Below are positions 862 to 14,929 of a DNA stretch of 15,198 nt, piece by piece (positions within the stretch are counted from its first letter, which is position 1; each line of letters starts with the position of its first letter). The DNA lies in NCBI GenBank assembly GCA_030668025.1, contig DAOUUT010000057.1, positions 1 to 15,198 on the forward strand, in the 5' to 3' direction. Position numbers and translations under genes: made by a program. The notes under the pieces were generated by a model, which was given only the letters and a program-made list of their open reading frames with translations, had not been told where the DNA came from and searched no databases. Source of the DNA: Promethearchaeota archaeon (GTDB lineage: Archaea > Asgardarchaeota > Lokiarchaeia > Sigynarchaeales > SOKP01).

Positions 862-1152
862 ATAAATGCTAAAAATAATATGAATGTATTTAATTATATG
901 ATTGGACGTTTTTAAATTTAAGAATTTATTTTTTCTTGAATCCGAGATTATTATCGAGTAATTAATGAAATTCCAAATTTAGTGTATAATTTTCTTTTTA
1001 CCTGAGAAAAATAGCTATTAAGGTGCTGATAATTTAAAAATTGTATACCCCGATTCTGTTTTTTATTTTTTAATTTTAAATACAAGTGTAAGGTTTTATA
1101 ATATCTTAGAAAAACTTTTTTGATATCCAGAATTAAAAAGAAATAATAGAAT
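862..1152. other. AT-rich intergenic region upstream of uvrA
   Basis: This stretch separates the ClC-like remnant (minus) from uvrA (plus), so it should hold divergent promoters. It is very AT-rich. A 73-codon minus-strand frame runs across it and into the 5' end of uvrA, but its low-complexity lysine, tyrosine and leucine composition and its overlap with uvrA argue against a real gene. I see no RNA gene. Confidence 0.45.
1093..1103 (+). promoter_or_regulatory. Candidate TATA box for uvrA
   Basis: A TTTTATAATA run lies about 50 bases before the uvrA ATG. With the usual 25-base spacing from TATA box to start site, this predicts a leader of roughly 25 bases. In such AT-rich DNA the match has little weight alone. 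Confidence 0.25.
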
Positions 1153-4023
1153 ATGAATGAATTTATTGTCATTAAGGGTGCTAGAGAGAATAATTTAAAA
1201 GATATTAATGTAAAAATACCACGTAATAAGCTTGTGGTTGTGACTGGTATCAGTGGGAGCGGGAAAAGTTCGCTTGTTATTAATACTATATTCGCGGAGG
1301 GCCAGAGGAGGTTTCTTGAATCTTTATCAAGCTATGCCAGACAATTTCTTGGTGAGATGGATAAGCCAGATGTGGATTCAATAGAAGGGTTATCTCCTGC
1401 AATTGCTATAGAGCAAAAAGCCTTGTCAAAGAATCCTAGAAGTACTGTAGGAACGGTCACAGAAATATATGATTATTACAGACTATTATTTGCCAATATT
1501 GGGATTCCTCACTGTCCTAATTGTGGCAAAGAAATCAGCCCGCAAACACCTCAACAAATAATACAACTAATCCTAGATGGGCTTGAAGAAAATCAAAAAT
1601 TCATTATTAAAGCACCAATTATTCGAGATCGAAAAGGTGAATATAAGGATCTTCTCGGCGATTTAAAAAAACAAGGATATGTTAGAGTTGAGATAGATGA
1701 CATTCAATATACTTTAGATGAAGAAATATCTATGGAAAAGAATGTTAAACATAATATCAGCGTAATCGTAGATCGCCTCGTTATGAAAAGCGATATAAAA
1801 ACGAGGTTGGCTGACTCCATTGAAACTGCCTTAGAACTGACTGAAGGAATCGTAGTTGTAGAGGTTCTCGATATAGGAGATCAAATTTATTCTGAACACT
1901 TAGCGTGTGTTGATTGTGGGATATCCTTTCCTCCAATTGATCATAAAATGTTTTCTTTTAACATCCCTCATGGGAGCTGCAAATACTGCAGTGGATTAGG
2001 AACTGTAATGGAATTTGATTATGCTTTAGTATTAGGAAGCGATTTAGATGTAACAATTCAAGATTCACCCATAAGAAACATTCCCGGATTTGGTTCTTTA
2101 ACGGGATATTCTTGGCAAGCAATAGAACAAGTCACTAAGCATTATGGATTCGACACTGATAAAACAGCGATAAAAGATATTGATCCTAAAAAATTACATA
2201 AAATATTGTTTGGAACTGAAGATGAAGTCATCGAATTTTATTACGAAAGCGAAAATAATGGCTACGGAAATAAAAAAGGCGAAATAAAGTCAAAGTATCA
2301 GGTAGCTAGGCCTTTCGAAGGGATCATACCCATGTTGCATAGAAGATACATGGACACTCGCTCTGAATGGGCTCGCGATACTTACGAAAGTTTCATGAAT
2401 CAGATTGATTGTCCTCAGTGTAATGGTCAAAGGTTAAAACCTGAAAGTCTTTCTGTACTTATCGAGAACACCAATATCGCTGAATTATCTAATCTAGCAG
2501 TCAAAGACTCATTGAATTTTTTTAAAAAGTTACAATTGAATGAACTCCAAAAGTCGATAGTTAAAGATGTACTAAAGGAAATATTAGATCGGTTATCCTT
2601 TTTGGACAATGTTGGATTAGATTACATTAGTTTAAGCCGAAGATCACACACACTCTCTGTGGGAGAGGCTGAAAGAATTAGGTTAGCAACACAATTAGGT
2701 TCCCGGCTAGTTGGTGTGTTGTATGTATTAGACGAGCCTTCTGTAGGATTACATCAACGAGATATTTCACAATTGATACAAATGTTAAAGAAATTAAGAG
2801 ATTTAGGGAATTCCGTAATCGTTGTAGAACATGACGATGAGATTATGCGTAACGCCGATCATATTATAGACCTTGGGCCTTTGGCAGGCGAACACGGGGG
2901 AGAGGTCGTTGCTGAAGGGCCTATTGAAGTTATTTTAGAATCAAAAACCTTAACTGGTGAATATTTATCAGGGAAAAAAAAGATTGAAGTCCCTAAAAAA
3001 AGACGAGTCATTAACGACGAATTTATTGAAATTAAAGGTGCGCGTGAAAATAACCTAAAAAATATAAATATCAAGATTCCTTTGGGGTTATTTACGTGTA
3101 TTACAGGCGTTTCGGGAGCGGGAAAAACAAGTTTGATAATTGATTGTTTATACAAGGGACTACATAACATTATAAATACTCGCAGTTCGCGTTTAAGCAC
3201 GGGCGATTTCAACGAAATAAAGGGTCACGATAAGATTGATAAAATAATTAACATAGATCAATCTCCAATTGGAAGAACGCCTCGGTCAGTTCCAGCTACT
3301 TATACGAAAGCATTAGATTTTATAAGAGATATATTTGCTAGACTTGAAGAATCAAGAGAGAGAGGTTATAAGAAAGGAAGATTCAGCTTCAATACTAAAG
3401 AAGGGCACTGTAAAAAATGTAAAGGTACGGGTTACATTCTTAAGGAGATGTATTTTCTTCCGGATGTTTACATCAGATGCGATTTGTGCAACGGTAAGAG
3501 ATACAACGCTGAAACCTTAGAAATTAAATTTAAGGGAAAAACGATTTCAGATGTACTTAAAATGACATTTCATCAAGGTCTAGAATTTTTCGATAGCATT
3601 CCAAATTTAAAGCGAACCTTAAAAACTGTAGTTGATGTAGGTTTAGGGTATCTTGAGCTAGGGCAATCCTCAACAACTCTAAGCGGGGGAGAATCTCAGC
3701 GGATAAAAATAGCAAGAGAATTGAGGAAAACTAGCACTGGAAATACCTTATATATTCTTGACGAACCAACTACAGGATTGCATGCCCATGACATAAAATT
3801 TTTAATGAAAGTACTTCAAAAATTAGTTGATAAAGGTAATACAGTAATAGTAATAGAGCATAACATGGATGTAATTAAATCTTCAGATTATATTATTGAC
3901 CTTGGACTTGAGGGTGGAGAAAATGGCGGAGAATTAGTCGTAAAAGGTACACCAGAAGAAATTATCGATAATAAAACATCACATACAGCAAAATATCTCA
4001 AGAGATATTTAAATCATAATTAA
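1153..4023 (+). CDS. uvrA: UvrA, excinuclease ABC subunit A
   Basis: UvrA is the DNA damage sensor of nucleotide excision repair. It dimerises on DNA and loads UvrB. All hallmark parts are present in 956 residues, close to the usual length. The first ATPase half has a Walker A (GISGSGKSS, residues 32-40), a signature at 501-505 and a Walker B (LDEPS, D527 E528). The second half has a Walker A (GVSGAGKTS from 652), signature LSGGE (843-847) and LDEPT (D870 E871). Cysteine pairs at 121/124 and 420/423, and zinc modules C252/C255/C276/C279 and C753/C756/C776/C779, match the family. The N-terminus (GAREN.L, IPR) begins where UvrA normally does, supporting the ATG. One oddity is that the first signature reads LSVGE instead of LSGGE. 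In archaea UvrABC is patchy and generally viewed as acquired from bacteria. No uvrB or uvrC lies in the window. Confidence 0.97.
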   Translation: MNEFIVIKGARENNLKDINVKIPRNKLVVVTGISGSGKSSLVINTIFAEGQRRFLESLSSYARQFLGEMDKPDVDSIEGLSPAIAIEQKALSKNPRSTVGTVTEIYDYYRLLFANIGIPHCPNCGKEISPQTPQQIIQLILDGLEENQKFIIKAPIIRDRKGEYKDLLGDLKKQGYVRVEIDDIQYTLDEEISMEKNVKHNISVIVDRLVMKSDIKTRLADSIETALELTEGIVVVEVLDIGDQIYSEHLACVDCGISFPPIDHKMFSFNIPHGSCKYCSGLGTVMEFDYALVLGSDLDVTIQDSPIRNIPGFGSLTGYSWQAIEQVTKHYGFDTDKTAIKDIDPKKLHKILFGTEDEVIEFYYESENNGYGNKKGEIKSKYQVARPFEGIIPMLHRRYMDTRSEWARDTYESFMNQIDCPQCNGQRLKPESLSVLIENTNIAELSNLAVKDSLNFFKKLQLNELQKSIVKDVLKEILDRLSFLDNVGLDYISLSRRSHTLSVGEAERIRLATQLGSRLVGVLYVLDEPSVGLHQRDISQLIQMLKKLRDLGNSVIVVEHDDEIMRNADHIIDLGPLAGEHGGEVVAEGPIEVILESKTLTGEYLSGKKKIEVPKKRRVINDEFIEIKGARENNLKNINIKIPLGLFTCITGVSGAGKTSLIIDCLYKGLHNIINTRSSRLSTGDFNEIKGHDKIDKIINIDQSPIGRTPRSVPATYTKALDFIRDIFARLEESRERGYKKGRFSFNTKEGHCKKCKGTGYILKEMYFLPDVYIRCDLCNGKRYNAETLEIKFKGKTISDVLKMTFHQGLEFFDSIPNLKRTLKTVVDVGLGYLELGQSSTTLSGGESQRIKIARELRKTSTGNTLYILDEPTTGLHAHDIKFLMKVLQKLVDKGNTVIVIEHNMDVIKSSDYIIDLGLEGGENGGELVVKGTPEEIIDNKTSHTAKYLKRYLNHN

Positions 4024-4085
4024 GATTACTAATAAAAATTTAAGTTTATTACTTCTCATTCAATAAATTCTAAATCTATTGATGC

Positions 4086-4094
4086 TTTTTTTAA
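4086..4094 (+). terminator. T-tract terminator after uvrA
   Basis: A run of seven T lies about 60 bases after the uvrA stop, in the 124-base gap before aIF5B. It fits an archaeal T-tract terminator. The rest of the gap is AT-rich and must also carry any aIF5B promoter, but I could not pick out a convincing box. Confidence 0.4.
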
Positions 4095-4147
4095 TTATTG
4101 CAAATATTTAGAGAAATTTAATTAATTCTTTCAAATAGTGGTTTTAA

Positions 4148-5956
4148 ATGAACACTGAATCAGAATCCAAGACTATTCGTGCTCCAATAGCATGTATTTT
4201 AGGCCATATTGATCATGGTAAGACTTCTCTATTAGATTATATTCGAGGGACTGTAGTACAACAACGAGAAGCAGCAGGAATTACTCAACACATAGGAGCG
4301 TCTTACTTTCCAACAGAGGATATTAGAACTTTTTTGGGTAAATCAAAACAAGAATTTGCTGAAAAAGAAATTCAATTACCTGGAATCCTAATTATCGACA
4401 CTCCAGGTCACGCCGCGTTTATGAATCTTAGGAAAAGAGGCGGAGCCATTGCGGATATTGCGATTTTAGTAATTGATGTAACCGCTGGAAACATGCCAAT
4501 TACATGGGAATCAGTTAGAATTTTAAGAGAACGGAAAGTTCCTTTTGTTATTGCTGCTAATAAAATCGATAGAATTTCAGGGTGGAAATCTACTAAAGAC
4601 GCAGACTTTTTAGATTCATACAATAAGCAAAGACCTCATGTAAAAGATTTTCTTGACGAAAAACTAATTCAAATTGGCGTTGATTTCTTGCAAGAAGGCT
4701 TCAAAGGAATCGATCGATACGATAAAATAAAGGATTTTACTAAAAAAATAGCGATTGTGCCTACAAGTGCTAAAACCGGAGAAGGAATATCTACCTTATT
4801 AATGGTTTTAATGGGTTTAGTACAGCAATTTTTAACGGAAAACTTGAAGTTCTCGGAAGGGCCAGCTAAAGGCGTTGTTTTGGAAGTGAAGAAAGAAAAA
4901 GGACAAGGCGTTACTATGGATGTTTTAATTTACGATGGCATCATTCACAAAGGGGACGAATTTATTGTTGGTGGCTTAGAAAAACCCATTAAATCTAAGG
5001 TTCGTGCGTTATTAAGACCCAAACCATTGGATGAAATAAGAGATCCGCGACAAAAATTTGACTTTGAAGAATTTGTAAGTGCTGCATCAGGAATTAAGGT
5101 TTTAGCTCCCAATATTGATGATGTCATTGCAGGCTCGCCTTTTAGGACCATTGGAACTTCTTCTGAGGAAGAAATGATATATAATGATATATTGGAAGAA
5201 GTTCAGAGTATACGGATAAAAACTGATAAAGCGGGCGTTGTCTTGAAAGCTGACACTTTAGGATCGCTGGAAGCTTTAGAAAATCATTTTACAAAAAATG
5301 GTGTGACAATATGTATTGCCGATGTCGGTTCAATTAAGAAAGAAGATATTATGAATGCAAATTTAGTTAAATCTCTTGATCCATATTCAGCAGTTGTTCT
5401 AGGTTTTAATGTGGCTATCTTGCCCGAAGCTAAGGAACAAGCAATAGGAGATAACGTTAGAATTTTTACAAATAACGTTATATATCGCTTACTTGAAGAT
5501 TATATTGAGTATGCAGAAATAAGAAAAGCCGAGGAAACAGCAAAAGGATTAAGCGAATTAGTTTTACCAGCAAAGCTACAGATGATTCCCGATTTTATAT
5601 TTAGAAACTCAGATCCCGCAGTTTTTGGCGTACTTGTAGAAGCAGGAACTTTATACCCAAAAGTTCCTTTAATAACTGCTAAAGGAGTAAAAGCTAGAAG
5701 AGTTCACCAAATTCAAGATAAAGGAAAGACTGTAGAGAAAGCTGGAAAAGATACCGAAGTTGCTATTTCTATTCGTGGCATAGAAATAGGAAGAGATATA
5801 GAAAAAGACGAAACATTATATGTTAATGTACCCGAATCTCATGTAAGGCAATTAATGGGAAAATTTCTCGATGAATTAACCATAGATCAAAAACAAGCTT
5901 TACGAGAATATATTGTAATCCAACGTAAACTCCAACATCCTTGGTGGGGAATGTAA
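4148..5956 (+). CDS. infB: aIF5B, archaeal translation initiation factor (IF2/eIF5B family)
   Basis: This GTPase promotes joining of the large ribosomal subunit and checks the initiator tRNA. The 602-residue length is typical of archaeal aIF5B, which lacks the long N-terminal extensions of bacterial IF2 and eukaryotic eIF5B. The G domain opens almost at once: GHIDHGKTS (19-27), switch I threonine in GITQHIGA (T46), DTPGHAAF (84-91), NKID (138-141) and a later TSAKTGEG. Domains II to IV follow. The C-terminus, with LREYIVIQRKLQ and a final HPWWGM, is characteristic of archaeal aIF5B. The ATG start leaves a normal short N-terminus. A GNAT gene overlaps its last codons, which suggests cotranscription. 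The family assignment is secure. Confidence 0.96.
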   Translation: MNTESESKTIRAPIACILGHIDHGKTSLLDYIRGTVVQQREAAGITQHIGASYFPTEDIRTFLGKSKQEFAEKEIQLPGILIIDTPGHAAFMNLRKRGGAIADIAILVIDVTAGNMPITWESVRILRERKVPFVIAANKIDRISGWKSTKDADFLDSYNKQRPHVKDFLDEKLIQIGVDFLQEGFKGIDRYDKIKDFTKKIAIVPTSAKTGEGISTLLMVLMGLVQQFLTENLKFSEGPAKGVVLEVKKEKGQGVTMDVLIYDGIIHKGDEFIVGGLEKPIKSKVRALLRPKPLDEIRDPRQKFDFEEFVSAASGIKVLAPNIDDVIAGSPFRTIGTSSEEEMIYNDILEEVQSIRIKTDKAGVVLKADTLGSLEALENHFTKNGVTICIADVGSIKKEDIMNANLVKSLDPYSAVVLGFNVAILPEAKEQAIGDNVRIFTNNVIYRLLEDYIEYAEIRKAEETAKGLSELVLPAKLQMIPDFIFRNSDPAVFGVLVEAGTLYPKVPLITAKGVKARRVHQIQDKGKTVEKAGKDTEVAISIRGIEIGRDIEKDETLYVNVPESHVRQLMGKFLDELTIDQKQALREYIVIQRKLQHPWWGM

Positions 5957-6582
5957 CTATATCCGAAATCCAAAAATTAACCTCATTATCTGATGATCAG
6001 CTAAAATTAGCTAGCGAGGTTTTAAGCGATGCCTTTCAAGAAGACCCTATTTTTTCTAAACTAATCCCCAATGATAAGGAAAGACATAAGACTCTATTCA
6101 AAATTTTTAAATTCCAGATTAAATACTGTTTGAAACATGGTGTAGTTTTTTCCACTTCAAATCTGAAAGGAATCTCGTTGTGGCTTCCACCTAAAAATGC
6201 CTTTATTTCAATATGGAAATCAATAAAGAGCGGTTCACTTTCTCTTATATTTAAAATTAAGTGGAAAAATTTACATATTCTAAGAAAAAACGATGATTTT
6301 TGTAAGGATTTACATAAAAAATTGATCTCAACTCCACATTGGTATTTATCCACTATTGGTGTTGACCCGAAACATCAAGGTAAGGGAATTGGAAGAAGAA
6401 TGTTAAGTTTCATGATAAATCAAATTGCGAAGGACCATAAAACAATTTTTCTTGAGACGAATTCAGAAAGAAATGTTAAAATTTATAAACATTTTGGCTT
6501 TCGAAATTTACATAAGGTTTTAACTCCCGGAACAAATATTTACCATTGGAGTATGATAAGGTGCCCAATTAAGAAGAAATAA
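5941..6582 (+). CDS. GNAT-family N-acetyltransferase
   Basis: This is a predicted acetyl-CoA-dependent acetyltransferase of unknown substrate. The clearest evidence is motif A, WYLSTIGVDPKHQGKGIG: a beta strand followed by the pyrophosphate-binding loop Q146-x-x-G149-x-G151. Further on, FLETNSERN followed by YKHFGF is the usual late GNAT pattern, in which the tyrosine region sits near the acetyl group. The N-terminal half (AF.EDP.F..LIP, then WLPP) resembles the broad GNAT subgroup that includes antibiotic-type acetyltransferases. Only TTG (5941) or GTG (5944) can start the frame near the right place; both lie inside the end of aIF5B, giving an overlap of 13 to 16 bases. There is no in-frame ATG in the N-terminal third. 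Expression by coupled translation with aIF5B is likely. The substrate cannot be read from the sequence. Protein N-termini, small metabolites and polyamines are all possible. Confidence 0.85.
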   Translation: MVGNVTISEIQKLTSLSDDQLKLASEVLSDAFQEDPIFSKLIPNDKERHKTLFKIFKFQIKYCLKHGVVFSTSNLKGISLWLPPKNAFISIWKSIKSGSLSLIFKIKWKNLHILRKNDDFCKDLHKKLISTPHWYLSTIGVDPKHQGKGIGRRMLSFMINQIAKDHKTIFLETNSERNVKIYKHFGFRNLHKVLTPGTNIYHWSMIRCPIKKK

Positions 6583-6623
6583 TTATGGTCTTTTAAATTC
6601 CAAAAGGATAAATTTTGAATTCC

Positions 6624-6634
6624 TTTATATTATA
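6624..6634 (+). promoter_or_regulatory. Candidate TATA box for the CCA-adding enzyme gene
   Basis: TTTATATTATA lies about 45-53 bases before the ATG at 6677, in a 94-base gap. A start site 25 bases downstream would give a leader of about 20 bases. A weak inverted repeat (AAAGGA at 6603-6608, TCCTTT at 6621-6626) sits just upstream. The call rests on spacing and composition only. Confidence 0.3.
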
Positions 6635-6676
6635 ACAACAATTTAAACATTAATTAATCACTTCAGACTCTTATGT

Positions 6677-8131
6677 ATGACTTTAATAAATGATATTTTC
6701 AAAAATATTTTAAAAGATATTACTCCAACTCAAGAAGAACTCGCTCTTATCAACGAAATTATTAAAAAACTCAGGAAGTTATTAGATGAAAAAGCTCAGC
6801 AGTTAAATCTTAAATATACAAAAATCGAACCTCAAGGCTCTACTGGAATTAAGCAAACGCAATTAAAAAACGACTTTGACATTGATCTCTTTGTTGGGTT
6901 AGATTATGAACTGTATAGCCCAAAATATGATGGCTTAAGCAGAAATAAGTTAAAAAAAGAGTCCAAGAAAGATTTTCTTTATTTGTGTAATAATTGGATA
7001 CTAAAATCTTTAATTCTAAAAGAATTTCATAATCCTCGACTTTTATATGCCGAACATCCATATGTTACTGTAGATTATTTCATTAATAATGTCAAAATAA
7101 AAGTTGATATTGTTCTTTATTTTGATTTAGAGCTGGAATACATACATAAATATGGACCTATAACGGCAGTCGATAGATCACCGTGGCACGGTCGCTTTAT
7201 AAAAGATAATTTATTAATTGAGCAGAAAAACGATGTTAGGTTGTTAAAGCAATTTTTTAAAGCTAACCACAGTTATGGCGATAAAAGTGCTGTAGGAAAA
7301 GTAGGATTTATTGGGTATAGTGCTGAGTTACTAATATACTATTTCGGCACCTTACAAAACCTGTTTAACAATTTCAAATTTCTTAAAGATAAACCTATTG
7401 ATTATTACAATAGAACTTTAAAAGAGTTGAGAAAGATTCAACATTTCCAAAACGATTACATCATCATTACGGATCCTATAGATAAAAATCGAAATGTTGC
7501 TTCTGCAATTTCAGAAAAAGCATACAAGTATTGCAATCAGAGAATAACGGATTTTATTAATAAGCCGAACAAAAGTTTTTTTAAAAGTGATAAAATACCT
7601 GAAGTTGAGATTTCTAAGATTGATGATACTCTCTTAGCTAAAATATTCATCGTGGAATTAAAAAACGAAATTAACGAGATACATTATACCATTAATAGAG
7701 ATAAATTATACTCAATCAGTGAAAACATTAAGACAAACGGAGAAAAAGAATTCTCTCGCGCGGAACGATTTGGTAAAATAGAATTTGAAGTGTACTTTGA
7801 AGAAGATATTGAGGAATATAATATAGCTATATTTTGTGAAAAACCTAAAATAACAGAAAATTACGAACGACGGGGACCTCCAATTAAAGAGAAAAATCAC
7901 GCTAATAAGTTTAGGATAAAAAATCCAAACTTTTTTGAAAGGGACGAATTCTTATGGATAGAATCTAAAAGAGATTACACAGAATTTCTTAAATTGTTAA
8001 AAGATTTTGTCAAGAATAAACTTCCAGAAAATCTAAGTGTTGTAAATCTTTCAAAATCTTTCAATGTCAAAAGAGTTTCAGGTAAAAGGGCAATTTACAC
8101 TTTGATAAATATGATTCTTCCACACGTTTAA
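6677..8131 (+). CDS. cca: CCA-adding enzyme, archaeal class I tRNA nucleotidyltransferase
   Basis: The enzyme adds or repairs the 3'-terminal CCA of tRNAs from CTP and ATP without a nucleic acid template. The nucleotidyltransferase core shows the G54-S55 helix turn followed by DFDIDLF, whose D68 and D70 are predicted metal ligands, and the third carboxylate D144 in KVDIVLYF. Next comes the archaeal class I block: ITAVDRSPWHGRF, then DVRLLKQFFK and a YGDKSAVGKVGFIGYSAELL region, matching the family pattern AVDRTP.H, EVRLLK.F.K and GFSGYL.E.L. The C-terminal third (about 320-484) matches the expected tail and body domains only loosely. At 484 residues it is somewhat longer than many archaeal homologues. 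The ATG is preceded by a plausible promoter, and nothing upstream extends the frame usefully. The gene stands between aIF5B/GNAT and the aEF2-like gene, in a translation-rich run. Confidence 0.93.
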   Translation: MTLINDIFKNILKDITPTQEELALINEIIKKLRKLLDEKAQQLNLKYTKIEPQGSTGIKQTQLKNDFDIDLFVGLDYELYSPKYDGLSRNKLKKESKKDFLYLCNNWILKSLILKEFHNPRLLYAEHPYVTVDYFINNVKIKVDIVLYFDLELEYIHKYGPITAVDRSPWHGRFIKDNLLIEQKNDVRLLKQFFKANHSYGDKSAVGKVGFIGYSAELLIYYFGTLQNLFNNFKFLKDKPIDYYNRTLKELRKIQHFQNDYIIITDPIDKNRNVASAISEKAYKYCNQRITDFINKPNKSFFKSDKIPEVEISKIDDTLLAKIFIVELKNEINEIHYTINRDKLYSISENIKTNGEKEFSRAERFGKIEFEVYFEEDIEEYNIAIFCEKPKITENYERRGPPIKEKNHANKFRIKNPNFFERDEFLWIESKRDYTEFLKLLKDFVKNKLPENLSVVNLSKSFNVKRVSGKRAIYTLINMILPHV

Positions 8132-8182
8132 TCTCCGATTAAGACATTGAATAGAAATAAATAAATTAAACAAGGAGTTCTG

Positions 8183-8226
8183 AATTAGACAATTTATTGC
8201 CTAATTACATAAAATTTTTATTTTTT
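8183..8226 (+). terminator. Hairpin followed by T tract after the CCA-adding enzyme gene
   Basis: Arms AATTAGACAAT (8183-8193) and ATTGCCTAATT (8196-8206) pair over 11 positions with a single mismatch and a two-base loop. A short spacer follows and then T runs of five and six (8215-8219 and 8221-8226). This looks like a bacterial intrinsic terminator. In archaea the T tract alone may suffice. It lies 51 bases after the cca stop and separates it from the next gene. The tight loop could also extrude as a DNA cruciform or bind a dimeric protein. Confidence 0.5.
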
Positions 8227-8296
8227 CTCGTATTTTCCTTCTCAATTATTGAATAAGAATCAAATAAAAATTAAATTATTTTAAAGTGAATTTACA

Positions 8297-10549
8297 ATGG
8301 TTAAAGTAAAGAACCCCGACGAGATAGCGCAACTCATTACAAGCGGTTCATACAAAAAAAAGCGGTTGTTTAGCATAGTAGCGCATATAGATCACGGTAA
8401 AACAACAGCAACTGATTACTTGTTAAGACGAGCAGGTTTAATGCGAGAAGAAGATGCTGGACAACTTCAGATGACTGATTCTGACGAAGAAGAGCAAGCA
8501 AGAGGTATTACTATTTTTACAAGTGTAGTTCTACTCGCATTCAATGACCCTAGAAAGCCTGATGACGATGAACCATATATTCTTCAAATCAATGATACGC
8601 CGGGACATATTTCATTTACTGGAGAAGTCTCGCGTGCTCTTAGAGGGAGCGATGGTGCAATAATTCTCGTCGATGCCTTAGAAGGGGTTATGACTCAAAC
8701 TGAAACAAACATCCGATTAGCCGTTGGTGAAGAGTTTTGCAAACCAGTTCTTTTTATCAATAAAGTAGATCGTTTAATTAGCGAGCTTAAGTTGAGCCCA
8801 GAAGACACATTTATGAAAATTGATAAAATTTCAAAACAAGTAAATGAGCTAATCAAAAAGATTAGGCCAGAAGGATCTAAATGGAGCGTTGATTTTGCTA
8901 AAAATAGCGTTGCTGTAGGGTCAGCTAAGCACGGATGGGGTTTTACGTACGAAATGTTATTAGATAAAGGTTTAAAACCACAAGATGTTTTCGCAAAATA
9001 TACCGAAGGAGACATTCAGTGGTTAAGAGATAATCTTCCACTCGATGAGCCAATGTTAAGAATGGTAGTTGATCATTTACCCAATCCTGTGGAAGCAGCA
9101 AATTACAGGATACCTCATATTTGGGGCGGTGATCTCAACTCAGAACTAGGACAAGCGCTTCAAAAGAGTGATCCGAACGGTCCTTTATACGGTATGATTA
9201 CCAAATTATTTTTAGATCCAAGGAGAGGATATCAACCAACTTTAATAGGCAGGGTTTTTTCTGGATCATTCCGACTATCGGACTCGATTTATTTGGTAAA
9301 TAACAGAACAAGTAATCGAGTAAAACGTTTGGGGGTCATGGAAATTACAGATCTATTGGATATTCCAAAAATTCCTGCAGGAAATTTGTTTGCTTTATAC
9401 GGTTTTATTTGTCCATCTGGAGAGACATTTATGTCAGCTAGTGATGTCCCAAAGGATAAAAAAGAAGCTAAACTTCTACCGTCTTTTGAAAAAATCCAAT
9501 ATGCGTGCGAACCCGTAGTTTCAAGAAGTGTTAAGCCACGAGACCCTCACGAAATCGACAAATTAGATACGGTAGTAAGTAAGTGGCTTCAAGCAGATCC
9601 TACTGCAATGTATCGGCGGGACAAAGAATCTGGAGAGTTCATTCTAAGTGGAATCGATCCGCTTCAAATTGAAATCCTTACCAAACGGATCAATAACCAA
9701 GTTCCTATTTTAATCGGTGAACCAATTATCGTTTACCGAGAAAAGATTACCAAGAAAAGCAAACTATTACATACTAAATCTGCCAATGCTCACAACCGAA
9801 TCTTGTTATACATAGAGCCTCTAGATGAAACAACTGAGAAATTAATCGATACGGGTAAGATCACTGATTTGATGAAGGATAAAGATAGAGCAAAAATTTT
9901 AAGAGAGGACGCAGGTTGGGACGCCAAAGAAGCTAGACGCATAGTAGATGTTTACCAAGGAAGCTTACTTGTGAACGGTACATCTGGTTTACAACGATTT
10001 GATAAAGTAAAATCTTATCTAATAGCCGCTTTTAGAGATTGGCTTGGAGAGTGCATTCTTGCAAAAGAACCAGCTGCGGGTTTTAAAGTAGTATTTACAG
10101 ATATGACCATCCACGAGGACACACGACATACTTCCTACGGACAAATTGCTGGAATGGCTTCTTCTGCTATGTCCTTAGCAATGTTGGACGCTGATCCTCA
10201 TCTTTTTGAACCTATTCAGAGAATTGATGTGAAAACACCAGATGGATCAGAAGGACCAGTGAATTCGATTATAACCAAGCGACGAGGTAGAATTACGAAT
10301 GTAATTCCAGAAGGAGAATATGTTAGAGTTCAAGGTACGATTCCTGCTGCTGAAACGATTGGTATAGCTGATGATATACGAGGTTCAACTCAAGGACGTG
10401 CGTTCTTCGGATACGAATTTTCTGGTTTTGATAAAGTACCTAAAAGTCTAGAAGAAGATTTAATTCTTGAAATTCGTAAACGTAAAAACATGCCTGATCA
10501 TTTAGCTAATTCTTCGAGCTGGGATCGATTTATTTACAAGAAAACCTAA
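8297..10549 (+). CDS. fusA: aEF2-family GTPase with altered diphthamide loop; probable second EF-2 paralogue
   Basis: EF-2 drives tRNA-mRNA translocation on the archaeal ribosome. The 750-residue product has the whole family layout. The G domain has AHIDHGKTT (29-37), ARGITI (68-73), DTPGH (100-104), NKVD (155-158) and GSAKHGW. Domain II follows (DPNGPLYG, GRVFSGSF), and the domain III/IV junction is EPIIVYRE with KSANAHNR. The domain IV tip is abnormal. The usual HxDxxHRGxxQ loop reads HEDTRHTSYGQ (606-616): the histidine that would become diphthamide is kept (H611), but the following RG and the downstream proline and arginines are gone. In the G domain, the near-universal PGHVDF is PGHISF. 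Some archaea without diphthamide synthesis genes, including Asgard members, encode a second EF-2 lacking key modification residues, and this fits that class. It may be a translocase variant or have another ribosome role. It could also be the only EF-2, which the window cannot show. Confidence 0.9.
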   Translation: MVKVKNPDEIAQLITSGSYKKKRLFSIVAHIDHGKTTATDYLLRRAGLMREEDAGQLQMTDSDEEEQARGITIFTSVVLLAFNDPRKPDDDEPYILQINDTPGHISFTGEVSRALRGSDGAIILVDALEGVMTQTETNIRLAVGEEFCKPVLFINKVDRLISELKLSPEDTFMKIDKISKQVNELIKKIRPEGSKWSVDFAKNSVAVGSAKHGWGFTYEMLLDKGLKPQDVFAKYTEGDIQWLRDNLPLDEPMLRMVVDHLPNPVEAANYRIPHIWGGDLNSELGQALQKSDPNGPLYGMITKLFLDPRRGYQPTLIGRVFSGSFRLSDSIYLVNNRTSNRVKRLGVMEITDLLDIPKIPAGNLFALYGFICPSGETFMSASDVPKDKKEAKLLPSFEKIQYACEPVVSRSVKPRDPHEIDKLDTVVSKWLQADPTAMYRRDKESGEFILSGIDPLQIEILTKRINNQVPILIGEPIIVYREKITKKSKLLHTKSANAHNRILLYIEPLDETTEKLIDTGKITDLMKDKDRAKILREDAGWDAKEARRIVDVYQGSLLVNGTSGLQRFDKVKSYLIAAFRDWLGECILAKEPAAGFKVVFTDMTIHEDTRHTSYGQIAGMASSAMSLAMLDADPHLFEPIQRIDVKTPDGSEGPVNSIITKRRGRITNVIPEGEYVRVQGTIPAAETIGIADDIRGSTQGRAFFGYEFSGFDKVPKSLEEDLILEIRKRKNMPDHLANSSSWDRFIYKKT

Positions 10550-10550
10550 A

Positions 10551-10592
10551 ATTTTTTATTATTTCTGTTTCTTTTATATTATTTTTAATTTT
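10551..10592 (+). terminator. T-rich terminator of the aEF2-like gene in a convergent gap
   Basis: The 43 bases between the stop of the aEF2-like gene and the stop of the convergent small GTPase gene consist mainly of T runs (up to six) on the plus strand. That fits T-tract termination of the plus-strand gene. No comparable T tract serves the minus strand here. Confidence 0.5.
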
Positions 10593-11147
10593 TTACATTT
10601 TAGCTCTTAAATAAAGCTTCTTAGCTAAAGCTTGAAATGCTTCAATTACACCTTGGCCTGTTAAAGCGCTGGTTTTAAAATACCCAAGAAATCTATTATC
10701 GATTACATATTTTCCAATATTGTAATCTGAAGTTGCTTTATCTTTATTCAATGATAAATCGTTTTCATCAATTAGATCGATCTTATTGCCAAATAGTGCA
10801 ATTGGAATGTTTCCACAATGTTCTTTAAGTTCATTGAACCATTTATCAACAACATTAAAACTTGTAGTTTGTTCTGGAGAGTGAGAAAAGACAAATATGG
10901 CACCACTACTCCCCATATAAAACTTTTGCCGCATTACATTAAAACTATCTTGACCCGCTATGTCCCAAATGAACAATTCGACTTTTTCACCCTCGACATC
11001 TTCTTCATATTTCGAAAACTGAGTCCCTAAAGTAGAGATGTAACTTTTCTGAAATGAGTCTGTAGTATACTTTTTAATTAACGATGTTTTCCCGACGGCT
11101 GGAGCACCTAAAACAATTATTTTAAATCCAAAAGCTTTTTCAGACAT
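10593..11147 (-). CDS. Ras/Rab-like small GTPase A
   Basis: This 184-residue single-domain GTPase switches between GTP and GDP states and presumably controls a partner protein. G1 is GAPAVGKT (14-21), a switch I threonine is T39 in STLG, G3 is WDIAGQ (61-66) with the catalytic-type glutamine, G4 is NKID (121-124) and G5 is TSALTG. The order and spacing follow the Rab/Ras/Ran superfamily, except that the usual WDTAGQ is WDIAGQ. There is no C-terminal CAAX or cysteine pair for lipid attachment, and no membrane segment. Two starts are possible, at 11165 and 11147. I chose 11147 because the MS start and the bases just before it match its neighbour B. Small GTPases of this type are abundant in Asgard genomes and rarer elsewhere in archaea. 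The regulators and effectors are unknown. Confidence 0.92.
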   Translation of the reverse strand: MSEKAFGFKIIVLGAPAVGKTSLIKKYTTDSFQKSYISTLGTQFSKYEEDVEGEKVELFIWDIAGQDSFNVMRQKFYMGSSGAIFVFSHSPEQTTSFNVVDKWFNELKEHCGNIPIALFGNKIDLIDENDLSLNKDKATSDYNIGKYVIDNRFLGYFKTSALTGQGVIEAFQALAKKLYLRAKM

Positions 11148-11172
11148 AATATTGTGTAAAATCATTTCTTAC

Positions 11173-11183
11173 TTTTTTAATTA
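11173..11183 (-). promoter_or_regulatory. Conserved promoter element upstream of small GTPase A
   Basis: On the minus strand, TAATTAAAAAA lies about 26-36 bases before the ATG at 11147, the distance expected for a TATA box of a leaderless or nearly leaderless transcript. A matching box stands at a similar distance before paralogue B, and the bases next to both ATGs also match (ATATTATGTC). Conservation between the two copies makes this more credible than a lone AT-rich match. Confidence 0.5.
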
Positions 11184-11275
11184 GTAATAATTGAATTTTT
11201 TAAATCTTCACAAAAAGAAATATTCTACTTTGGTTCAGTGTTCAAGAATATTCATTTGTTGAAAAGAAATTCAAA

Positions 11276-11836
11276 TTATAGTTTAGTTTTAAAGTAGAGT
11301 TCCCTGACTAACTTTTGAAATGCTTTAATAACACCTTGGCCTGTTAATGCGCTTGTTTTAAAATATCCAATGAAATTATGATCTTTCGAATGTTTTCCAA
11401 CGTTAAAATCTGAATTTACTTTATCCTCGTTTAGAGCTAAATCTTTCTCATCAATTAAATCGATCTTATTTCCAAATAATGCAATTGGAATATTTCCACA
11501 ATATTCATTAAGTTCTTTTAGCCATTTATCAATGTGATTAAAACTTGTTATTTCTTCTGGTGCGTGAGAAACCACAATAATTGCGGCACTACTTCCATTA
11601 TAAAACTTACTACGCATTGTTTCAAAAACATCTTGACCTGCAATATCCCATATGAATAAATTAATTTGGTTTCCTTCTAAGATCTCTTCGTATTTTGAAA
11701 ACTGAGCGCCTAGAGTGGCGATATAATCCTTTTGAAATGATCCAGTAGTATACTTTTTAACTAAAGTTGTTTTTCCAACGGAGGGATCTCCCACTACCGT
11801 TATTTTAAATTTAAACTCTTTTTCTTCGTTTGACAT
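11276..11836 (-). CDS. Ras/Rab-like small GTPase B, paralogue of A
   Basis: This 186-residue GTPase has the same layout as copy A: G1 GDPSVGKT (16-23), switch I T41, WDIAGQ (63-68), NKID (123-126) and TSALTG. In my hand alignment about two thirds of the residues are identical to A (roughly 120 of 180). Blocks such as FIWDIAGQD and GNIPIALFGNKIDLIDE are fully identical. Differences cluster in the P-loop flank, around the region after switch I, in the alpha-3 region and at the C-terminus, which are places where partners usually bind. No lipidation signal is seen. The gene lies upstream of A on the same strand with a 128-base gap that contains A's own promoter-like box, so the two may be transcribed separately. 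It is divergent from the acidic repeat protein gene, with 152 bases between the starts. Confidence 0.93.
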   Translation of the reverse strand: MSNEEKEFKFKITVVGDPSVGKTTLVKKYTTGSFQKDYIATLGAQFSKYEEILEGNQINLFIWDIAGQDVFETMRSKFYNGSSAAIIVVSHAPEEITSFNHIDKWLKELNEYCGNIPIALFGNKIDLIDEKDLALNEDKVNSDFNVGKHSKDHNFIGYFKTSALTGQGVIKAFQKLVRELYFKTKL

Positions 11837-11857
11837 AATATTATGTGATTAAATGTC

Positions 11858-13603: not shown

Positions 13604-14893
13604 TTATGGAGTTGAAATTTTAGGGTCTTTGTCTTTATCCCAATTTACGGCAAATAAGAAATCTCTACTCACTTCATTTTTATATATTAAAGGAAAATTT
13701 CCAATCTCTTCGAACTTTAGAGCTAAATCTTCTAAATATTCATATTCGGGGAAGTAATATTGAAGAGTTTTATCGCTTTTTAGTCTTTCGTTTATCTTGA
13801 GCGCTTTTGCTTGTAATGTAAATCCTTTTATTTCAAAAAAATTTGGATTAGCTTTGTCAATTAATTTAATATAGTCCTTTATGTAATTTTCAGATAAATT
13901 TAAGTTTTTTACAGCTGTTATTCTTACTAAACTTCTACAAGATAAACTTTCAACTAAATCTAAGGTGTTTGATATTTTACCCCACCCATTTTTAATCATA
14001 GGTCGGCAAACTTTTTTATACACCGTCTCGTTTGGTGCAGGTAAGGTTATATACAGTTGGGATGGTAATGAATTTAAACTTTCAATCTTTTCTGGTAGCG
14101 TTCCGTTAGTTACAATAAATGAAGTCATGTTGCGATTCCGGAATTCTTCAACTAATCCGTCTATTTTGGGATATAATAGAGGTTCACCATCAAGAGATAT
14201 TGCTGCGTGATTTGGATTCATTGCTTCGCCATGAACTTGCATTATCTCATCAGGTGTAGTTAATGCTAAATTGAATAACTTTACGATTTCGTCTCGTGAA
14301 TTAATACAGCAAGAAATCTCTTTCTCGACTCTATAATTTTTTAAAGAATCATCTATAGCCGCAATAAATTTTTGATTTTTTAGTAAATTAATAGCGCGAT
14401 CAACCTTGTTTTTACTTACATGAAGGTTAAGGGAAAGTGAATTTATATTATGATTTTCATCATTCGATAACATAAATTTTAGCATGTCAAGCATAATTTC
14501 GTAATTTTCAAGATACCTTCTTAATGGCAAATGATTTTTTATAATATCACGCTGGTGGCGGATCATTTCATTAACTAGATCTTTTGGCTCGTCCGGTTCA
14601 ACAATAAATTCACCGCCTAAACTTCCTAATTCAATGTCTCTCCAACAGAATACGCATTGATGGTTGCAGAAAGGCATCGAAGGAGTATTTTGTAAACATC
14701 TGTGGCTTTGAATTCCAAAAACTCCTTTATAACAATTTCGATTATCTCTACCTGTTAATAATTTTTGTTCTAACCAGGGACAAGGTTTAATTGCAGTGTG
14801 CTTATTTCTACCTATTATGCGATATGTCGTTTTTGTATATTTTTCAACGAAATCGTTTGTAATTTTATTATTAACAATGTATTGGTTTTTCAT
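13604..14893 (-). CDS. taw1: Taw1 (TYW1), 4-demethylwyosine synthase with an inserted domain
   Basis: Taw1 is the radical-SAM enzyme that converts N1-methylguanosine 37 of tRNA-Phe into 4-demethylwyosine using pyruvate, the entry step of wyosine synthesis. The radical-SAM motif is C76-x3-C80-x2-C83 followed by W, as in the family's CIFCWR. C38, C54 and C66 correspond to the three cysteines of the second iron-sulphur cluster. Upstream, YKGVFGIQSHRCLQ is a family hallmark. AISLDGEP, FIVTNGT, QLYITLPAPN, RITAVKNLN and FFEIKGF continue the order seen in Taw1. From about residue 121 to 212 there is an extra segment that looks like a winged helix, so the length is 429 instead of about 310-340. An in-frame TTG at 14908 would add five residues. 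The ATG at 14893 is preferred. The gene stands alone on its strand in this window. Confidence 0.93.
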   Translation of the reverse strand: MKNQYIVNNKITNDFVEKYTKTTYRIIGRNKHTAIKPCPWLEQKLLTGRDNRNCYKGVFGIQSHRCLQNTPSMPFCNHQCVFCWRDIELGSLGGEFIVEPDEPKDLVNEMIRHQRDIIKNHLPLRRYLENYEIMLDMLKFMLSNDENHNINSLSLNLHVSKNKVDRAINLLKNQKFIAAIDDSLKNYRVEKEISCCINSRDEIVKLFNLALTTPDEIMQVHGEAMNPNHAAISLDGEPLLYPKIDGLVEEFRNRNMTSFIVTNGTLPEKIESLNSLPSQLYITLPAPNETVYKKVCRPMIKNGWGKISNTLDLVESLSCRSLVRITAVKNLNLSENYIKDYIKLIDKANPNFFEIKGFTLQAKALKINERLKSDKTLQYYFPEYEYLEDLALKFEEIGNFPLIYKNEVSRDFLFAVNWDKDKDPKISTP

Positions 14894-14929
14894 ATCTGAG
14901 TGCCACAATTATTTATTCGAATTCTATTA

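Follow-up and report, generated by a model that had tools for sequence, protein, structure and literature searches.

Why does a histidine known for its modification stay fixed in organisms whose modifying enzymes are gone? The question is raised by a gene for a homologue of elongation factor 2 (EF-2) on contig DAOUUT010000057.1 of a Promethearchaeota archaeon, in a stretch of 15,198 nucleotides (nt) that we call the window in its whole length. At the tip of domain IV the product keeps H611, the position that bears diphthamide in canonical EF-2, followed by threonine where canonical EF-2 has arginine. Our answer is that the window gene probably encodes the main EF-2 translocase of a lokiarchaeal lineage unable to make diphthamide, as judged from sequence comparisons. 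The original prediction, drawn from the letters of the window, had instead seen an altered second EF-2 with a broken diphthamide loop. The window organism is a lokiarchaeal, Asgard archaeon, since its EF-2 is 95-96% identical to Lokiarchaeota contigs, e.g. JAHQWH010000115 and Loki_b31.

The window protein belongs to the EF-2/EF-G superfamily, with GTP_EFTU, EFG_III, EFG_IV and EFG_C in order, the G motifs and the fold. Alignments to the window protein place HEDxxHRGPAQ at the tip of five archaeal EF-2s of known structure, and diphthamide-modified EF-2s carry the loop HxDxxHRG; the window loop begins HEDTRHTS. The open reading frame and these alignments bear out the loop HEDTRHTSYGQ at residues 606-616, as first described, with RG replaced by TS and H611 kept. 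They also bear out the absence of the proline and arginines that follow the glutamine: G, S and S stand at the P619, R622 and R623 positions, where all 17 HRG-type Asgard EF-2s in the comparison have P/R/R.

On present sequences, this loop is the conserved form of a whole clade and not a broken single case. H611-T612, within H-x-D-x-x-H-T (below, the H-T tip), occurs in 121 of 121 sequences, the query and the best 120 of 5126 database matches, which excludes sequencing error or chance. A search with a deep-branching Asgard protein (L100) again gave H-T in 121 of 121, comprising the window EF-2 (P0001) and the best 120 matches listed, whose names include Odin-, Thor-, Baldr- and Heimdallarchaeota. 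In a tree of 109 sequences the clade holding P0001 has 70 representatives, 69 with H-T and one with isoleucine after the histidine (H-I, L249). Over the stretch 596-635, D602, H606, D608, H611 and M620 are identical in 139 of 139 genomes and T612 in 138 of 139; these genomes were drawn by the motif H-x-D-x-x-H-[TI], so that their figures for 606, 608, 611 and 612 are not independent of the drawing, as the two counts of 121 and the tree clade are. The tip is thus fixed rather than decaying, and the description of this copy as "intermediate" does not hold. That the loop decays neutrally after loss of the dph genes is hardly credible. RG and the following P and R residues are gone, as such decay would have it, but H606, D608, H611 and T612 do not drift among the best matches or within the tree clade while 607, 609, 610 and 613-615 vary, which contradicts it. 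One H-T EF-2, 61% identical to the window's, comes from a contig titled Bathyarchaeota (L027, WJJB01000174.1), perhaps a mislabelled Asgard genome bin.

The genes for diphthamide synthesis were sought in the 26 genomes that hold relatives of the window gene. Dph1/2 (PF01866) was matched in 0 of 26 and Dph5 (TIGR00522) in 0 of 26, the latter also in 0 of 8 other Asgard genomes. The same searches succeed elsewhere: PF01866 detects Dph1/2 in 19 of the 195 genomes of the Asgard phylum that were searched and, within a control set of 14, in the 4 that are archaea, and Dph5 was found in 17 of those 19 genomes. Because Dph1/2 and Dph5 are each lacking in all 26, diphthamide on H611 is unlikely in the window organism, in agreement with the original prediction, and H611 would be bare to judge from the relatives. 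Assembly gaps do not explain the absence, since five near-closed genomes among the 195, with two EF-2 matches each (G076, G119, G147, G179 and G182; one contig approximately the length of the genome) also gave no match to Dph1/2. In the relatives' genomes, the check on dph genes that had been proposed was negative for Dph1/2 and Dph5, and for the family that includes Dph6 (PF01902, DUF71) it returned matches in 6 of the 26 genomes, in 4 of the 8 others and in 18 of the 19 with Dph1/2. These PF01902 members are what could be said for diphthamide still being made by enzymes too divergent to detect. Yet DUF71 also serves other pathways, by the title of PMC3541065, Dph1/2 and Dph5 are both unmatched by searches that detect them in other Asgard genomes, and the R and G beside the histidine are lost in the window EF-2; we regard this explanation as highly improbable.

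Loop type and Dph1/2 go together. A loop was read in 164 of 204 genomes (G001-G204), after exclusion of seven loci that carry no genome handle and seven sequences whose loop could not be read. All 18 Dph1/2-positive genomes in this table have HRG only (the nineteenth, G093, has Dph1/2 but no EF-2 read). Among the 146 Dph1/2-negative genomes, 142 have H-T, 1 has H-I, 2 have only a copy without HxDxxH, and 1 has HRG; in 37 of the 142 a copy without HxDxxH was read as well. H611 and T612 stay constant over about 50-96% identity in the absence of Dph1/2, and this constancy could reflect a different, non-diphthamide modification of H611 by an enzyme unrelated to Dph1/2, with T612 in its recognition site. 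A candidate enzyme did not turn up, though no search was aimed at one. Contact of a plain histidine with the codon-anticodon helix suffices to explain the conservation, and H606 and D608 are equally fixed, so that we consider another modification improbable.

Eight Asgard genomes outside a Hodarchaeales-like group have Dph1/2 and Dph5 (G030, G031, G056, G064, G071, G077, G083 and G093). The seven of them with an EF-2 match have a single EF-2 with HRG (L076-L078, L082, L083, L087 and L088). They contrast with PMC10307638, which names only Hodarchaeales as Asgards with dph genes and a single canonical EF-2. The name of the Hodarchaeales-like group is itself deduced from inserted segments described in PMC12395588.

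If the window kind of EF-2 works without diphthamide, what does the other copy do? Many archaea without dph genes carry a second EF-2 lacking key residues (PMC10307638, in part). The relatives follow this pattern, as had been expected for Asgard members: a second EF-2 gene is present in 21 of the 26 genomes (in G014 as fragments only), and five (G013, G017, G018, G019 and G021) show the H-T copy only. Among 17 further genomes searched, 16 had two EF-2 matches, of which the pairs in G048 and G171 may be parts of one gene. The expectation of an altered second EF-2 thus stands as to two genes and missing dph genes in the relatives, and is not supported as to which gene is altered. A second EF-2 with a canonical HRG loop had been named as something to look for; HxDxxH is missing in 16 of 16 second copies read from the relatives' genomes, and it was not seen by eye in 11 second-copy tails from the further genomes.

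The two kinds differ in the residues that would touch the codon-anticodon helix. From shared motifs and yeast numbering, we take H611, H499, H606 and D608 of the window protein to match yeast residues 699, H583, H694 and D696. In yeast, diphthamide-699 makes contact with the codon-anticodon helix with the help of H583, H694 and D696 (PMC8674143, in part). Of 143 H-T/H-I proteins, taken one per genome, 134 retain H499, and the other three contact residues are present in all 143 by definition of the class. None of the four is found in the 16 second copies from the relatives, and of 38 aligned copies without HxDxxH from all groups, 30 have none and 8 have one. Both copies were read in 36 genomes; of the 630 genome pairs that these make, 618 show higher conservation in the H-T copy, and mean identity in domain IV is 64% for the H-T copy vs 38% for the other (proteins shorter than 640 residues were excluded from conservation counts and trees). 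Contact residues and conservation are good evidence from which we infer that the H-T copy acts as the translocase. By the same comparisons it is the other gene, and not the window gene, that has degenerated in these organisms, because the second copies lack HxDxxH and mostly lack the contact residues.

Descent gives a different picture from the state of the tip. In a maximum-likelihood tree of 47 sequences, copies without HxDxxH group with HRG-type Asgard EF-2 (ultrafast bootstrap 99) and with the EF-2 of Sulfolobus (98); the H-T clade stands apart (98) on a stem of 0.61. A single clade of H-T copies and copies without HxDxxH was rejected (approximately unbiased (AU) test, p = 0.010), and a tree with all Asgard EF-2s together and Sulfolobus outside was not (p = 0.089); both tests used constraint trees from a quick search and 5000 resamplings, a number below the program's recommendation. 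The outgroup is thin, with four non-Asgard sequences and neither Korarchaeota nor Geoarchaea; a broad EF-2 search (alignment A2) listed 120 sequences, all close to its first row and, where named, Methanobacteriaceae, and so provided no wide outgroup. Because of the tree grouping and the AU results, the other gene is assigned to the canonical EF-2 lineage by descent and the H-T gene to a separate paralogue, which may stem from an Asgard duplication or be older. The tree check proposed at the outset comes out as had been predicted, the window protein not lying among canonical single-copy archaeal EF-2s.

It is on these grounds that the roles of the two copies could be reversed, the other copy being the translocase and the window EF-2 an altered second copy whose side role is unknown, as the first reading of the window had it. 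A long stem (0.56-0.61 substitutions per site across both trees) sets the H-T clade apart from canonical EF-2, and the other copy groups with canonical EF-2. It also scores higher on the archaeal EF-2 equivalog model TIGR00490 (NCBIfam), with 644.8 bits to 615.5 for the window EF-2, both under the 738.45 cut-off; by whole-protein similarity it is the nearer of the two to canonical EF-2. Against this, the other copy is without HxDxxH, has lost every contact residue in 30 of 38 cases and is poorly conserved in domain IV, while the window kind keeps its contact residues and is the more conserved, especially in domain IV. That the window EF-2 is an altered copy of unknown role is not supported, and we judge the reversed assignment unlikely.

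Besides long stem, model score and overall similarity, several points weigh against the window gene as the main translocase of a lineage without diphthamide. The absence of dph genes in the window organism is itself inferred from the 26 relatives' genomes. The association of Dph1/2 with the loop is clean but reflects few independent events, mainly one clade, and not 164; EF-2 copies were fetched by profile score, and the loop table is complete for neither copy. G192 has HRG without detected Dph1/2, perhaps through incompleteness. The histidine is also retained, as read from the aligned sequences, outside the H-T kind: L084 (G065) and L086 (G050), which lack HxDxxH and come from genomes negative for Dph1/2, still have H and R at 611-612 (SLTAEHRSPSN), perhaps because tip loss has only begun in them. 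In at least four genomes (G068, G139, G185 and G197) the single EF-2 match scores like the other kind. Finally, the other copy is not simply dispensable, since the five near-closed genomes all keep both copies. In the wider draw, several more genomes have only weak or partial EF-2 matches. Genomes with a single kind were considered as a test of which copy is essential, and this was dropped as weak: both kinds occur alone, and the near-closed genomes keep both.

With the H-T copy as translocase, domain IV of this GTPase would enter the A site, where unmodified H611, helped by H499, H606 and D608, would hold the codon-anticodon helix while the ribosome translocates, and would do so without a diphthamide side chain. 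Every Dph1/2-positive genome with a loop read has R612; in the H-T clade this residue would have become fixed as Thr, with one Ile, and the second EF-2 gene, of canonical lineage by descent, would have lost the tip motif and taken on something else. R612T would then be an adaptation to diphthamide loss rather than a neutral hitch-hiker. There is a mammalian precedent: G717R in eEF2 largely rescues Dph1 loss (PMC11053169, in part), and the modified histidine of that protein is H715 (PMC8807479, in part). In that protein, a change two residues after the modified histidine can replace diphthamide.

The deep-branching H-T EF-2 L100 (G034) has the loop HEDPAHTGPAQ, identical to that of Sulfolobus except for Arg to Thr. 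This suggests that the arginine was the first residue of the loop to change.

The other copy could have become a ribosome maturation GTPase that releases aIF6. The Asgard pair, with the H-T copy as a bare His-Thr translocase, would then parallel the eukaryotic EF2/EFL1 split. Ordinary archaeal EF-2 made without diphthamide does release aIF6 (PMC8024482, in part). A PDB search with the other copy L040 matched human EFL1 (5anb, 228.5 bits), and 5anb is outside the 60 best for the window EF-2. The match is weak support because L040 is generally nearer to canonical EF-2, and we hold this division of labor to be doubtful.

Compared with canonical diphthamide EF-2 (PDB 6q2d, 8hl1, 5h7j and 6u45; the first is Dph2 bound to EF-2, by its title), the window protein is alike in its five domains, G motifs, tip H and D, and fold. 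It differs in having HTS for HRG, in lacking P619, R622 and R623, in an identity of 32-38%, and in that its relatives' genomes gave no match to Dph1/2 or Dph5. A further close system is the EF-2 pair of dph-less Asgards (Narrowe et al. 2018, as described in citing papers), which is likewise Asgard, without dph and with two genes. Here, the copy that keeps the histidine is a separate clade and the copy without HxDxxH is of canonical lineage. Of the features by which the second EF-2 of dph-lacking archaea is recognized, two were read in the relatives' genomes: two EF-2 genes in 21 of 26, and no match to Dph1/2 or Dph5 in 26 of 26. The key diphthamide residues are missing in part from the window EF-2, R and G being gone and the target H kept, and the other copy is without HxDxxH altogether. 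That other EF-2 (e.g. L040, G001) is also an EF-2 GTPase and groups with canonical EF-2. The Hodarchaeales-like EF-2s (L108-L135), also Asgard, are open frames of 811-826 residues with HRG, encoded by a single gene, with Dph1/2 in 11 of 12 genomes read. A description of the H-T tip or of the assignment of copies to the canonical lineage was not found in the literature consulted, and Narrowe et al. 2018 may contain one.

If H611 is bare, the H-T protein would be a natural translocase that works without diphthamide, and R612T is a single substitution with which compensation can be tested. The result also bears on which Asgard EF-2 gene is the working factor. The point is important wherever EF-2 serves as a marker for trees of life, as the copy that groups with canonical EF-2 differs from the copy that keeps its tip.

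The gene of the window type is interrupted in some relatives. In 10 of their genomes, one of them the near-closed G182, it contains 30-nt inserts with in-frame stops, 11 distinct ones in all, at four sites after residues 30, 34, 61 and 63 (window numbering), near the P-loop and switch I. Archaeal mRNA introns are cut after the second base of each bulge in a bulge-helix-bulge structure (PMC2738675, in part). Ten of the 11 inserts can be drawn as a 4-base-pair (bp) helix with two 3-nt bulges and a 9-bp stem (with mismatches in some), and cuts by this rule excise exactly 30 nt and restore the frame. L235, which does not obey the cut rule, was excluded from the covariation count. For the remaining 10, 94.6% of cells agree with the drawn pairing, and 6 of its 13 pairs show changes on both sides, against shuffled means of 81.8% and 3.3 pairs; sliding the pairing drops the agreement to 31-48%. 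Minimum-energy folds of inserts with 24-nt flanks place the hairpin as expected in 10 of 11. L222 folds otherwise, and one of the 10, the second insert of L023, shows an internal loop in place of a bulge.

The splicing endonuclease (PF01974) is present in 11 of 11 genomes searched (the 10 carriers and G001), with two genes in 8. A model of the inserts, run across 15 genomes with 150 of 979 to 11,837 candidate places scored per genome, gave 10 strong matches, all of them EF-2 inserts used to build it, the next best having E = 0.0057. In the window its best match had E = 0.14, with nothing within EF-2. Ten of the 11 inserts fit archaeal bulge-helix-bulge introns, with splicing as a prediction, and some 702-residue database proteins may be annotations shortened by them. 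A literature search by listing found no papers on EF-2 introns in Asgard archaea.

Table 1. Features of the window (window positions) and inserts in related loci (positions in the locus named)
Feature	Position	Strand	Basis or remark
aIF5B (translation initiation factor IF-2), conserved neighbour	4148..5956	+	NF003078 754 bits, above cut-off; synteny
CCA tRNA nucleotidyltransferase, next gene upstream of EF-2	6677..8131	+	TIGR03671 196.5 bits, below 281.3 cut-off; Pfam; synteny
EF-2 homologue (translational GTPase), 750 residues, H-T tip type	8297..10549	+	Open reading frame; Pfam GTP_EFTU, EFG_III, EFG_IV, EFG_C
G1 motif AHIDHGKTT, residues 29-37	8381..8407	+	Translation/alignment
Insert sites of relatives, projected on the window	8386/8387, 8398/8399, 8479/8480, 8485/8486
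Codons S62-E64, uninterrupted in the window	8480..8488	+	Alignment with insert-bearing relatives
H499 in motif KSANAHN	9791..9793	+	Aligns to KSPNxHN in archaeal EF-2
Domain IV tip loop HEDTRHTSYGQ, residues 606-616	10112..10144	+
H606	10112-10114	+
D608	10118-10120	+
H611 (codon cat)	10127..10129	+	Position of diphthamide in canonical EF-2
T612 (codon act)	10130..10132	+	Arg in canonical EF-2
Two adjacent Ras-family small GTPase genes, downstream of EF-2	10593-11165 and 11276-11836	-	Pfam
TYW1/Taw1-like radical SAM gene (wyosine base of tRNA-Phe)	13604..14908	-	TIGR03972 259.8 bits, below 317.95 cut-off
Insert in L022	8190-8219
Insert in L014	8190-8219
Inserts in L023	8091-8120 and 8220-8249
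Insert in L224	1690-1719
Further insert carriers L234, L231, L222, L230, L233, L235

The predicted structure agrees with the family assignment. The bacterial EF-G model TIGR00484 gives the window EF-2 227.4 bits, far from its 659.4 cut-off. An AlphaFold model of the protein has a predicted local distance difference test (pLDDT) of 87.1 and a predicted template modelling score (pTM) of 0.80. Its best PDB matches are Methanoperedens EF-2 6u43/6u44/6u45, with template modelling (TM) scores of 0.85-0.90 and 32-34% identity. The other archaeal EF-2 chains listed reach TM 0.50-0.61 with a root-mean-square deviation of about 10, probably because the model has another domain arrangement. The model also matches spliceosomal Snu114 (TMq 0.79-0.83), above the scores of several archaeal EF-2 chains, which we would likewise read as domain arrangement and not kinship.

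A TYW1/Taw1-like gene lies 3 kb downstream of EF-2, and of 33 related loci 21 have it. Wyosine, like diphthamide, helps to maintain the reading frame. In yeast, wybutosine cooperates with diphthamide (PMC8674143, in part). The gene may be relevant to EF-2, as a neighbour and not as evidence. The CCA tRNA nucleotidyltransferase gene is found upstream of EF-2 on the same strand in 26 of the 33 loci, and a match to the Ras-family GTPases near EF-2 in 20.

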